Shown: positions 24,638 through 30,774, counted from the first letter of the stretch. The stretch: 64,000 nucleotides of DNA from Hyalangium ruber (GCF_034259325.1 NZ_JAXIVS010000008.1:62001-126000), one strand, 5' to 3'. Made by a program: numbers and translations. The notes: generated from the letters alone by a model not told the origin.

Positions 24638-25732
24638 ATGAAGTGCCAGCCACCAAGGTGGTGTGGAGGTCTTCTCCTGGGAGTGCTGCTGGCGCTGGCG
24701 TCGGCCTGCTCGAATCCGGAGCAGCCCCCTGCAGGCGCGGACGCGGGGATGGACGCAGGACTCCCGGACACGGACGCGGGGATGGACGCGGGACTCCCGG
24801 ACGCGGACGCGGGGATGGATGCAGGACTGCCGGGCGCGGACGGAGGCATCCCCGAGCCGGATGGAGGCACCGCCTCGCGCAAGCCCTATGTGGTGTTCGT
24901 GGTAGATCGCTCCGCTACCCTGATTTTCCCTGTCGACGCGAACGACCCGGATTGCCAGATGGCCGATAACAGCTTGTGCGGCACGCAGGGACAGGACAAC
25001 TGCAATCCCGCGCTGTGTCCCACGCGCCTGGGCACCCTGAAGGCCGAACTGGAGCAATTCCTGTCCAGCCATGCGACCCAGGCTCGTTACGGCCTGGCGT
25101 TCTTCCCCGCCACCACGACCGGCAGCTCGACACTCGAGGAGGCTTGCAGCTCTTCCTCTCAGATGAAGGTCTCTCCGCCCACGGGAGATGAGCCCGAGGA
25201 CCTTCAGCTCTCGGCGGACGCGGTGCTGCAGGCGATCCAGAACCTCCCCGCTCCCGCGGGCAGCAGCCCCCTGGGCGACACGCTGGAGATGGTGGCGCGA
25301 GAGACACCCCTCGGCTCCGCCGCCGCCATGGCCGGGGACCTGGTGGTGATCGTCACGGATGGTCCTCCCAACTGCAACGCCGACAACGTCAACGATAGCT
25401 CCAACCCCGCCCTGTGCCGCTGCACCGCGTTTTCATGCATGGGGCAGTTGACGCGCCTCGGCTGCCTGGACCTGGACGTCCCGGTGTCCCTGCTGAACGG
25501 CCTGCGCTCTCGGGGCGTGCGTACGTACGTCCTGGCGGTGGGGGATGATACTTGGATGGGTCAGCTTCCCGAGGTCTTCAATTCGCTGGCCACGGCCGGC
25601 GATACCGCTCGCGCCTGTCCTCAGGGCACGAGCGCGGAGTGTGGTGACTCCGACTTCTGCAATCCCTCCACGCTCCTGTGTGGCAGAAGATTCCTGAGGT
25701 CCGGTGAGCTCAACCGCATCCTCGCTCCTTGA
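24638..25732 (+). CDS. VWA-domain lipoprotein with DAG repeat linker
   Basis: 364 residues. Lipoprotein signal ending at Cys24 (LALASAC). A linker of three exact-style 11-residue repeats (DAGMDAGLPD-x, residues 35-67) leads to a von Willebrand factor A-type domain (about 85-330): VVFVVDRSAT replaces the usual DxSxS metal site, and VVIVTDGPPNC gives the following strand. Many Cys suggest disulfides. The protein should be surface anchored and may bind a partner, with metal binding doubtful given the altered first motif. It is convergent with the metallo-beta-lactamase gene. Confidence 0.9.
   Translation: MKCQPPRWCGGLLLGVLLALASACSNPEQPPAGADAGMDAGLPDTDAGMDAGLPDADAGMDAGLPGADGGIPEPDGGTASRKPYVVFVVDRSATLIFPVDANDPDCQMADNSLCGTQGQDNCNPALCPTRLGTLKAELEQFLSSHATQARYGLAFFPATTTGSSTLEEACSSSSQMKVSPPTGDEPEDLQLSADAVLQAIQNLPAPAGSSPLGDTLEMVARETPLGSAAAMAGDLVVIVTDGPPNCNADNVNDSSNPALCRCTAFSCMGQLTRLGCLDLDVPVSLLNGLRSRGVRTYVLAVGDDTWMGQLPEVFNSLATAGDTARACPQGTSAECGDSDFCNPSTLLCGRRFLRSGELNRILAP
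24740..24838 (+). repeat. Three 33-bp tandem repeats
   Basis: In-frame repeats encoding DAGMDAGLPD plus a variable residue, followed by a partial fourth unit. They form the spacer between the lipid anchor and the VWA domain; copy number could vary between strains. Confidence 0.85.
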
Positions 25733-27716: not shown

Positions 27717-27869
27717 GCCTCTGAAGGGCTGAGACCCGGCGCCGCGTCCTCGACGGGATTCAAACCCGTGGGGGAGGGGTGCCGGGGAGGGATGCATCAC
27801 CCACCGCATGGCCAGTCCACCCGGTGGGGCTCGGGCCTGATATGCTGGGGCGAGTTCTCTGCCACCGCC

Positions 27870-28676
27870 ATGACCGATCCCGTGCCCCACCGCTGGCTGG
27901 AGCCAGACGAGTCCCCTTCCTTCAGCGCGCACAACCTCGACGGCGCATCCCCCTGCGTGCTGCTGTGTGATCATGCGAGCAACCGCGTCCCTCGGCGTCT
28001 GGCCGAGCTGGGGTTGCCTGCCTCGGAGCTCGGGCGCCACATCGCCTGGGATCTCGGCGCGAAAGGCGTGGCGCTCGAGCTGTCCCGGTTGCTCGATGCG
28101 CCGCTGCTCATGAGCGGCTACTCCCGGCTGGTCATCGACTGCAACCGCCCCCTGGCCGCGCGTGGCTCCATCCCCGAGACCAGTGACGGCACCGTCATCA
28201 CCGCCAACCAGGCCCTGCCTGCCGAGGAGCGCGCCGCGCGCGCGGCGGCGCTCTTCCACCCGTACCATGATGCCATCCGCGCACTGCTCGACCGACGCCA
28301 GGCCGAGGCGCGTCCCACCCTGCTCGTCAGCGTCCACAGCTTCACCGATCGCTTCGGCGGCAAGAGCCGCCCCTGGCACGTGGGCCTCGCCTATCACCGA
28401 GACAGGCAGGTGGGTCCCGCCCTGATCCGCGCGCTCCGTCGCGAGCCTGAATTGTGCGTCGGCGACAACGAGCCCTATGCCGTCAGTGATGACTCCGACT
28501 ACTCCATTCCCGTGCATGGGGAGCGTCGCGGCCTGCCCTGCACCCTGATCGAGATGCGCCAGGACCTTCTCGGCGACGAGCACGCCCAGCACCGCTGGGC
28601 CCAGCGGCTCGCGGACGCGCTGCGCGCGGTGCTTCCGGAAGTGTTGGCCCCTCCTGCCAGAGAGAGTGCCTCATGA
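27870..28676 (+). CDS. N-formylglutamate amidohydrolase family protein
   Basis: 268 residues from the ATG at 27870; the open frame upstream lacks a ribosome site and good codon use. Family motifs: LLCDHASNRVP, SRLVIDCNRPL, SVHSFTDRF and the C-terminal EMRQDLL. The founding enzyme releases formate from N-formyl-L-glutamate in histidine breakdown. No other histidine-utilisation gene is nearby, so the substrate may be another N-acyl or amide compound. It starts an operon: its stop overlaps the isochorismatase start by four bases (ATGA). Confidence 0.92.
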   Translation: MTDPVPHRWLEPDESPSFSAHNLDGASPCVLLCDHASNRVPRRLAELGLPASELGRHIAWDLGAKGVALELSRLLDAPLLMSGYSRLVIDCNRPLAARGSIPETSDGTVITANQALPAEERAARAAALFHPYHDAIRALLDRRQAEARPTLLVSVHSFTDRFGGKSRPWHVGLAYHRDRQVGPALIRALRREPELCVGDNEPYAVSDDSDYSIPVHGERRGLPCTLIEMRQDLLGDEHAQHRWAQRLADALRAVLPEVLAPPARESAS

Positions 28677-29371
28677 AGCCCGTGTACCTGCCTCCCATTG
28701 ACGCCGAGGGTGGGGCCTACCGCGAGCGCTCCATCGAACCGCGCCGCACGGCACTGCTCAACATCGACATGCAGAACATGGAGGTGTCGCGGGAGATTCG
28801 CGACCGCGCCCGGCAGCCGGGGACTCCCGAGAGCCGCAAGGCCAGCTACTACGAGCGCGTCGAGCGCCTGGTCATCCCCAACCAGCAGCGCCTGCAGGCG
28901 GCGGCTCGCAAGGCGGGCCTCGAGGTCATCTTCACGACGATCGAGAGCCTGACGCGCGATGGGCGTGATCGCAGCCTCGATCATAAGATCTCCCGGCTGC
29001 ACGCTCCCAAGGGCTCTTGGGAGGGGAGGGTGATCGACGAGGTAGCGCCCGTCGGAGACGAGATCATCATCCCCAAGACGTCCTCCGGCATCTTCAACTC
29101 GACCAACATCGAGTACGTGCTGCGCAACCTCGGCATCGAGTACCTGATCGTCTATGGGGTGCTGACGGACCAATGCGTCGAGTCCGCCATCCGAGACGCC
29201 GCGGACCGAGGTTTCATGGTCACGCAGATCGAGGACTGCTGCGCCAGCTATACGCCCGAGCAGCACGAGCACTCGATCCACGCGATGAAGGGCCACTACT
29301 GCCGGACCCGGAGCACCGACGAGATGATCGCGGAGTTGGAACGACTGACAACAGGCGCGCAGGTCGCCTGA
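28673..29371 (+). CDS. Isochorismatase-type cysteine hydrolase
   Basis: 232 residues. The catalytic triad of the family is visible: Asp32 (LLNIDMQNM), Lys135 (IIPKTSSGIF) and Cys168 (LTDQCVESA). Such enzymes cleave amides like nicotinamide, N-carbamoylsarcosine, biuret or ureidoacrylate, or the ester of isochorismate. Middle gene of the three-gene operon, overlapping the amidohydrolase by ATGA and 15 bases before the ligase. The neighbours suggest amide or formamide catabolism (inference). Confidence 0.94.
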   Translation: MKPVYLPPIDAEGGAYRERSIEPRRTALLNIDMQNMEVSREIRDRARQPGTPESRKASYYERVERLVIPNQQRLQAAARKAGLEVIFTTIESLTRDGRDRSLDHKISRLHAPKGSWEGRVIDEVAPVGDEIIIPKTSSGIFNSTNIEYVLRNLGIEYLIVYGVLTDQCVESAIRDAADRGFMVTQIEDCCASYTPEQHEHSIHAMKGHYCRTRSTDEMIAELERLTTGAQVA

Positions 29372-29386
29372 GAGGCAGGGACGATC

Positions 29387-30721
29387 ATGATCACCGAGCT
29401 CAAGCTCACCCCCGGCGAGCCCTTGCTCATGCTGGCGTGCAACGATCTCAGCGGAGTCACCCGAGGTCGCGCGGTTCCAGCCTCCGAGCGTGACGCCTAT
29501 CTGGAGAAGGGGGTGGGCTGGGTGCCAGCGGATCAGGCGCTCACGCCCTTCGACGTCATCGCCGACCCGAACCCCTGGGGCTCGGAGGGGGACCTGCGCC
29601 TCAAGCCCGACCCTGCCGCGGAGGTCCGGGTCTCGCTGTGGCCGGATGCCACCCCGCTGCACTACATGCTGTGCGACATCGTCCACACGGACGGCTCCGC
29701 CTGGGACTCGTGCGCACGGACCTACCTGCGGCGAGCGCTCGCGGAGCTGGAGTCCGTGGCGGGGCTCAGGCTCAAGGTCGCCTTCGAGCACGAGTTCATG
29801 CTGGTGGACCAGGCGCCTCCTGGGCCGGCGTTCTCCCTGCGTGCGCTGAGGGCAGAGGATGCGCTGGGCAGCCAGATCATCGCGGCGCTTTACCAGGCCC
29901 AGCAACAACCCGAGATGTTCCTGCCCGAGTACGGGGCGGGCCAGTTCGAGGTGCTGTGCCGCCCAGCCGAGGCCCTCGCGGCAGCGGACCGGGCTGTCTT
30001 CGTGCGCGACATCTGCCGCGAGGTCGCCGCACGCCTGGGCAAGCGCATTACCTTTGCCCCCAAGCTCAACCCCCAGGGGGTGGGTAACGGCGTGCATATC
30101 CACTTCAGTCTGTGGAACCGGGAAGGCCAGCCGGTGAGCTACGAGGCGAAGGGGCCTGGTGGACTGAGCACGGTGGCGGGCCGCTTCGCCGCGGGTGTGC
30201 TGGCGCACTTGCCTGCGCTGTGCGCGCTGACCGCGCCGAGTGTTGCCTCCTACCTGCGCCTGATGCCGCACCACTGGAGCGCGGCGTACACGTGCCTGGG
30301 CTACCGCAACCGGGAGGCCGCGGTGCGCATCTGCCCGGTGGAGGATCGTCCGGGCGTCGATGTGTCACGCCAGTTCAACCTGGAGTACCGGCCGGCGGAT
30401 GCGACCGCCTGCCCGTACATCGCGCTGGGGGCCCTGGTGTACGCGGGGCTGGATGGGATTCGACGCGAGCTGGCGGTGCCCCCGCTCGTCAACGGCGATC
30501 CCTCTGAGCTGACCGAGGCCGAGCGCGAGCGCGTGGGTGCCCGTCGGCTGCCCGCCTCGCTGCCCGAGGCGCTCTCGGCCCTGGAGGCTGATGCGACGCT
30601 GAGCAACAGCTTCTCCAGGGATCTGCTGGCCTGCTACCTGTCGCTCAAGCGCACCGAGCTGAAGGCCGTGGCGGGGCTGGAGCCCGCGGCGCTCTGTCGG
30701 CGCTACGCTGACGTCTATTGA
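29387..30721 (+). CDS. Glutamine synthetase family ligase (GlnA-like/PuuA-like)
   Basis: 444 residues. The N-terminal beta-grasp part is shorter than in GlnA; the catalytic domain has AFEHEFML, the nucleotide-binding GNGVHIHFS segment, then RLMPHHWSAAY and FNLEYRPADATACPY. This pattern fits the gamma-glutamylamine ligases or GS-like proteins rather than housekeeping glutamine synthetase; the adenylylation Tyr loop is not seen. It likely joins glutamate to an amine with ATP. Last gene of the operon with amidohydrolase and isochorismatase. Confidence 0.9.
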   Translation: MITELKLTPGEPLLMLACNDLSGVTRGRAVPASERDAYLEKGVGWVPADQALTPFDVIADPNPWGSEGDLRLKPDPAAEVRVSLWPDATPLHYMLCDIVHTDGSAWDSCARTYLRRALAELESVAGLRLKVAFEHEFMLVDQAPPGPAFSLRALRAEDALGSQIIAALYQAQQQPEMFLPEYGAGQFEVLCRPAEALAAADRAVFVRDICREVAARLGKRITFAPKLNPQGVGNGVHIHFSLWNREGQPVSYEAKGPGGLSTVAGRFAAGVLAHLPALCALTAPSVASYLRLMPHHWSAAYTCLGYRNREAAVRICPVEDRPGVDVSRQFNLEYRPADATACPYIALGALVYAGLDGIRRELAVPPLVNGDPSELTEAERERVGARRLPASLPEALSALEADATLSNSFSRDLLACYLSLKRTELKAVAGLEPAALCRRYADVY

Positions 30722-30774
30722 GAGCGCAGCAGAAGCGTTGCCGCGCCGCATTCTGGAGAAGGGGGAGTGGTGTC

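Follow-up and report, generated by a model that had tools for sequence, protein, structure and literature searches.

A portable three-gene cassette in Hyalangium ruber predicted to break down amides through gamma-glutamylation

What do three closely packed genes accomplish together when routine annotation would name them an N-formylglutamate amidohydrolase, an isochorismatase and a glutamine synthetase? The trio lies in a 64,000-nucleotide stretch of the Hyalangium ruber genome (NZ_JAXIVS010000008.1:62001-126000; hereafter the window), where a sequence-only reading had proposed that gamma-glutamylation and two amide hydrolyses could form a route, so far undescribed, by which an amine or amide is catabolised. 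Three open reading frames (ORFs) occupy 27870-30721, as that reading had stated:

27870-28676, plus strand: FGase, a zinc amidohydrolase of the PF05013 FGase family (PF05013, E 4e-47)
28673-29371, plus strand: isochorismatase-family cysteine hydrolase (PF00857, E 1e-35)
29387-30721, plus strand: glutamine synthetase (GS)-like ligase (PF00120, E 4e-80, plus PF16952)

The start of the hydrolase ORF overlaps the FGase stop by 4 bp and the ligase begins 15 bp past the hydrolase stop, matching the overlap and short spacing claimed earlier; from this spacing we infer that the three genes are co-expressed. An OsmC-like gene lies upstream, and an unknown ORF, a DUF1304 gene and a cytochrome P450 gene lie downstream, with a LysR regulator and an MFS transporter farther along. 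A BLASTN comparison with the two nearest relative genomes found none of these window neighbours linked to the trio there. Also consistent with the earlier reading, the window trio had neither hut nor polyamine genes beside it, urocanase and HutF both being encoded on other contigs. Alcohol and aldehyde dehydrogenases were absent in and beside the trio, and an adjacent transporter, regulator or racemase was lacking both here and at the copies in the two near relatives. Elsewhere in the window, a 33-bp tandem repeat (24736-24842, 3.2 copies) within a lipoprotein-like ORF (24638-25732) encodes a DAGMDAGLPD-type repeat.

The distribution of the trio in its own phylum points to mobility. A strong hydrolase match was present in 3 of the 195 genomes of a phylum sample: the source genome (10.8 Mb, 43 contigs) and two genomes of another genus in the same family, whose hydrolases are 91-92% identical to that of the window. 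BLASTN similarity to these two genomes was confined to window positions 27865-30722, the extent of the three coding sequences, and the flanks differed; in both relatives the trio lies downstream of methylmalonyl-CoA mutase genes, and in one it is upstream of an alpha-2-macroglobulin gene on the opposite strand. Because similarity spans exactly the three coding sequences without any flank, the trio behaves as a portable cassette. The dN/dS values of its copies against the two related genomes (0.06-0.22) indicate purifying selection and therefore that all three are working genes. Outside the phylum, the nearest relatives are found in Alphaproteobacteria, with hydrolase identities of up to 72% (Labrys, Kaistia and Mesorhizobium), suggesting that the trio was transferred from the alphaproteobacterial side.

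We searched genome contigs with the hydrolase alone as seed, which yielded 80 loci, 50 of them with full 10-kb flanks. Within 10 kb of the hydrolase, the ligase was present in 42 of these 50 loci and the FGase also in 42; one or the other was found in 48, and both in 36. The trio is thus conserved, a property on which the sequence-only reading had made its proposal depend. FGase and hydrolase were immediate same-strand neighbours in 51 cases across the 80 loci. The hydrolase was accompanied by a MurR/RpiR regulator in 32 of the 50 full-flank loci and by a Liv-type (branched-chain-type ABC) permease in 37; the substrate-binding protein of this transporter gave only generic branched-chain/amide matches, and APC-type permeases stand in for the ABC transporter in some clusters. 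The trio families, usually with this regulator and transporter, recur across Alpha- and Gammaproteobacteria, and the same gene set is present on annotated plasmids of Roseomonas, Shinella, Ensifer, Sinorhizobium, Nitratireductor, Antarctobacter, Paracoccus, Pantoea and Klebsiella. Labrys-type loci hold two hydrolase copies, and the window hydrolase is closest to the copy that is divergent from the regulator. The window copy is a stripped version, probably acquired horizontally, in which the customary regulator and transporter are missing. The literature that could be searched, largely outside the subscription journals, contained no description of this gene set.

Several of these loci have features of their own. 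Forty-five Klebsiella plasmid records have FGase matches, and the one inspected (L143) carries the trio with an RpiR regulator, an APC permease and a racemase-like gene. An actinobacterial contig (L055, Nocardioides marinus) begins with a complete alphaproteobacterial-type cluster, reflecting recent transfer or contamination. Six loci have a gene of the acetamidase/formamidase family (PF03069) no more than 10 kb from the trio (for example, L071:1340-2275). Proteins of about 1,000 amino acids are encoded beside the trio at L053:10611-13661 and by similar long ORFs in L055, L060, L079, L080 and L044; the L053 protein combines APH kinase, M23 peptidase-like and class-III aminotransferase domains.

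The ligase falls in one clade with PA5508 (PauA7) of Pseudomonas aeruginosa (support 97/94), an enzyme that glutamylates bulky amines and forms a single hexamer ring, and both have E327 changed to W and R355 to N. Residues for metal and for glutamate are retained in the window ligase: in E. coli GlnA numbering, the metal residues E129, E131, E212, E220, H269 and E357 and the arginines R321, R339, R344 and R359 are unchanged. At the ammonia site, D50, Y179 and E327 give way to A, A and W, as in PA5508; the corresponding residues are S, V and Y in PuuA and S, D and F in the ethanolamine-type ligase. The protein reached the cut-off of neither the GlnA profile (TIGR00653, 205.6 bits versus 429.15) nor the PuuA profile (NF045547, 318.2 bits versus 650). 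With the ammonia-site residues lost, glutamine formation from ammonia is not expected, and the enzyme should instead glutamylate a bulkier amine. We therefore predict that it is a GS-like gamma-glutamyl-amine ligase of the PA5508 group; the sequence-only reading had already noted its resemblance to gamma-glutamylamine ligases. The solved structure nearest to it, 4hpp (9e-132), is that of PA5508, for which a preference for bulky catecholamine-like amines is reported (PMC6478659). In P. aeruginosa, PA5506-PA5509 respond jointly to plasmid carriage and were there termed glutamine synthesis genes (PMC6246594). The source genome also encodes a second GS-like protein of about 534 amino acids (G000:C6:355428-356429, L001) with V, G and W at D50, Y179 and E327, which may be another glutamyl-amine ligase.

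The hydrolase has the intact catalytic triad that the earlier reading had reported (D32, K135 and C168), with these residues found in 102-103 of 103 relatives; a GRDRSLDxK motif is also nearly fixed among the 103 copies. An AlphaFold (AF2) model (pLDDT 88) was closest to RutB, maleamate amidase, biuret/triuret hydrolases and N-carbamoylsarcosine amidase (Z 25-26.5), and true isochorismatases scored only slightly lower, so the fold alone is not decisive; the sequence ranking agrees with the amide/urea branch. The enzyme shares fold and Asp-Lys-Cys triad with these amide hydrolases, but it has its own GRDRSLDxK signature and lies below the available equivalog cut-offs for RutB (TIGR03614, 66.4 versus 377.95) and BiuH (NF050097, 82.3 versus 370). 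We class it with the amide/urea hydrolases and predict that it cuts the amide of a gamma-glutamylated compound.

The FGase probably acts after that cut. In a tree of 92 sequences, the trio FGases grouped with the Aminobacter NyZ550 FGase, with Atu2144 (2odf) and with an FGase adjoining eutBC on pRi1724. The AF2 model (pLDDT 94) was closest to 2odf (Z 37.2), followed by 2q7s, annotated as an N-formylglutamate amidohydrolase (Z 22.8), and by 3a9l, a poly-gamma-glutamate hydrolase from a phage (Z 13.3). In the glutamylated-ethanolamine route, hydrolysis of gamma-glutamylglycine has been assigned to a protein of PF05013, a step that is itself predicted (PMC9397018, PMC6529630). The trio FGase is best read as the end-of-route enzyme that removes glutamate, a predicted gamma-glutamyl-amino acid hydrolase, and not as a deformylase. 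Loci without FGase are compatible with this assignment. A PF04909 amidohydrolase lies between ligase and hydrolase in L043 and L056, with a homologue in L039; an AstE/AspA-type zinc enzyme accompanies ligase and hydrolase in Pseudomonas L036, and a class-II amidotransferase-fold protein does so in L093. Such replacement by unrelated hydrolases fits one common task, removal of the glutamyl group, although other FGase-less loci such as L044, L045 and L061 had no evident replacement hydrolase.

Evidence on the substrate comes from a further neighbour. Directly behind the FGase, Ensifer carries a gene annotated as a class-III aminotransferase that matches alpha-amino-epsilon-caprolactam racemase (ACLR) at 4e-223 and 'amino acid amide racemase' 6gio at 2e-142, and GABA aminotransferase at only 1e-65. 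The same racemases rank first for the Klebsiella and Pseudohalocynthiibacter copies. With amide racemases as the best solved relatives, we rejected the idea that this gene encodes an omega-amino-acid transaminase serving beta-alanine or GABA amides. Racemase relatives (about 41% identity or more) occurred in 17 examined loci. In the reverse direction, a trio gene lay 3-7,071 bp from the racemase in each of the 35 plasmid records that encode a close one; this gene was the FGase in every case except one, in which it was the GS, and the 35 records come from few lineages. To our knowledge, amino acid amide racemases have so far been known solely for their industrial use. The substrates known for ACLR are alpha-amino lactams, amino acid amides and homocysteine thiolactone (PMC7431475, PMC11391342). 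Together, the linkage and the known racemase substrates make alpha-amino acid amides our best guess for the food of the pathway, ahead of polyamines or formamides. Close relatives of this racemase (PDB 2zuk, 3dxw, 5m49, 6gio) are present in many trio clusters but absent at the window: no close ACLR was found in the source genome, where the best match has 35% identity, or in the genomes of its two near relatives, so the substrate guess is carried over by relatedness. A racemase-like gene was present in only 12 of the 80 hydrolase-seeded loci, and the substrate may differ between clusters.

The sequences themselves establish which genes are present, their active-site residues, their conservation and portability, and what lies next to them; from these we infer a series of reactions, their order and their substrate. 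The GS-like ligase would use ATP to join the amine of the substrate to the gamma-carboxyl of glutamate; the cysteine hydrolase would then cut the amide of the masked compound, yielding ammonia and a gamma-glutamyl-amino acid; and the FGase-family zinc hydrolase would free glutamate and the amino acid. We give about even credence to the trio being a horizontally spread catabolic cassette for small compounds that carry both a primary amine and an amide, alpha-amino acid amides being the likeliest. Co-occurrence of the genes, a ligase without ammonia-site residues, an amide-type hydrolase, the clade of the FGase, substitution in its slot and the racemase linkage all favour this model. Against it stand the bare surroundings of the trio here and in the two near relatives, with no adjacent transporter, regulator or racemase, and the reported preference of PA5508 for catecholamine-like amines, not amino amides. 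A further point against the model is that free amidases need no ATP to hydrolyse amino amides; we speculate that masking may keep the free amine from being lost, from cyclising or from exerting toxicity. The chemistry proposed in the sequence-only reading, gamma-glutamylation and two amide hydrolyses in amine or amide catabolism, thus gains partial support from conservation, family placement and neighbours; what changes is the part of the FGase, to which the last step now falls, and the candidate substrates, among which polyamines and formamides give way.

In one rival explanation, the trio is a loose assembly whose FGase serves the genome's histidine pathway as its N-formylglutamate deformylase: the source genome encodes urocanase, followed by an imidazolonepropionase-like ORF (judged by eye), and HutF (G000:C3:708712-710079), it gave no match to FTCD, and the trio FGase is its only PF05013 gene. 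The protein nonetheless scored 29.8 bits on the HutG profile TIGR02017 (cut-off 278.75), whereas a control HutG beside HutF in a relative's genome (G028) scored 351.1, and the HutG clade is separated from the trio FGases with support of 100/100; the window FGase also lies away from hut genes. HutF occurs in 82 of 96 family genomes, nearly all without a strong PF05013 gene, such HutG-type genes being found in a handful. The family therefore does not depend on an FGase of this kind, and some other enzyme seems to carry out deformylation in its histidine breakdown. Profile score, tree position, genomic location and occurrence across the family led us to reject the histidine role, to which we would attach very little probability; the sequence-only reading had set its proposal against just such a plain N-formylglutamate activity, which finds no support here. 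Scarcely credible, too, is plain nitrogen salvage, in which ammonia set free by two amidases would be built into glutamine by the GS-like enzyme. Related records do annotate the ligase as a glutamine synthetase, but D50, Y179 and E327 are replaced in the examined trio ligases and retained in another GS of the source genome (at C10), and the score lies far under the GlnA cut-off. Glutamine synthesis was rejected on these active-site residues.

Two further explanations accept glutamylation and change its target. A cassette for aromatic or other biogenic amines, in which the ligase glutamylates, the FGase recycles glutamate and the hydrolase cuts a different amide, would serve detoxification or nitrogen supply. 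The preference reported for PA5508, a member of the same ligase clade (PMC6478659), and the APC-type permeases that replace the ABC transporter in some clusters speak for it. Known amine routes, however, need an oxidising enzyme after glutamylation, and no such enzyme, alcohol and aldehyde dehydrogenases included, was conserved with the trio in the relatives' loci; the explanation also leaves the racemase for amino acid amides without a role, as it does the amide-type hydrolase that is so strictly retained, and we consider it unlikely. A ring compound as substrate is more doubtful still. An alpha-amino lactam or a (thio)lactone, such as alpha-amino-caprolactam or homoserine lactone, would be racemised and glutamylated, the cysteine hydrolase would open the ring, and glutamate would be taken off. 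The racemase family does act on alpha-amino lactams and homocysteine thiolactone (PMC11391342), but the solved relatives of the hydrolase cut linear amides and ureas, and ring opening by that branch was not found.

The amino acid amide model can be set beside characterized or proposed routes with related enzymes. Its closest parallel is the glutamylated-ethanolamine pathway of Chromohalobacter salexigens (a prediction) and Streptomyces coelicolor (GlnA4 SCO1613, SCO1611, SCO1612 and SCO1615). That pathway also places a GS-like ligase first and a PF05013 hydrolase last, its FGases form one supported group with those of the trio, and it is RpiR-linked in Aminobacter, where the NyZ550 cluster consists of RpiR, FGase, GS, ALDH and ADH genes adjoining bhc genes. 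In the trio, by contrast, an isochorismatase-family amide hydrolase takes the middle of the route in place of alcohol and aldehyde dehydrogenases, and the ligase belongs to another clade. Lacking the two dehydrogenases, the trio would be a variant of gamma-glutamylation catabolism and not a member of the glutamylated-ethanolamine pathway. The Puu pathway of E. coli (PuuA, PuuB, PuuC and PuuD) follows the same logic of glutamylating, modifying and removing glutamate, but it oxidises a polyamine and its PuuD belongs to another hydrolase family. A polyamine route was rejected for the trio, as no PuuB, PuuC or PuuD gene adjoins the window copy and the ligase misses the PuuA cut-off. FluG of Aspergillus, an amidohydrolase fused to a PA5508-like ligase, recalls the clusters with a PF04909 amidohydrolase between ligase and hydrolase; it differs in having no isochorismatase domain. 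PA5508 replaces the C-terminal half of FluG (PMC6478659). The PA5508-type ligase and PF04909 amidohydrolase at L043:5861-8965, L056 and L039 resemble the two halves of the fungal protein as separate bacterial genes.

More broadly, and with a confidence that stays tentative, the trio may be the core of a widespread, undescribed pathway for catabolism of D- and L-alpha-amino acid amides by gamma-glutamyl masking, which would provide the first physiological setting for ACLR and amino acid amide racemases, assign PA5508 a role and supply a model for the biochemistry of fungal FluG. If so, glutamine synthetase, N-formylglutamate amidohydrolase and isochorismatase would be misleading routine names for the parts of one testable pathway. 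It would span soil, plant-associated and marine Proteobacteria and Klebsiella plasmids and, by transfer, reach a few genomes related to that of the window; it would also suggest a natural role for amino acid amide racemases and offer testable chemistry for PA5508 and FluG.
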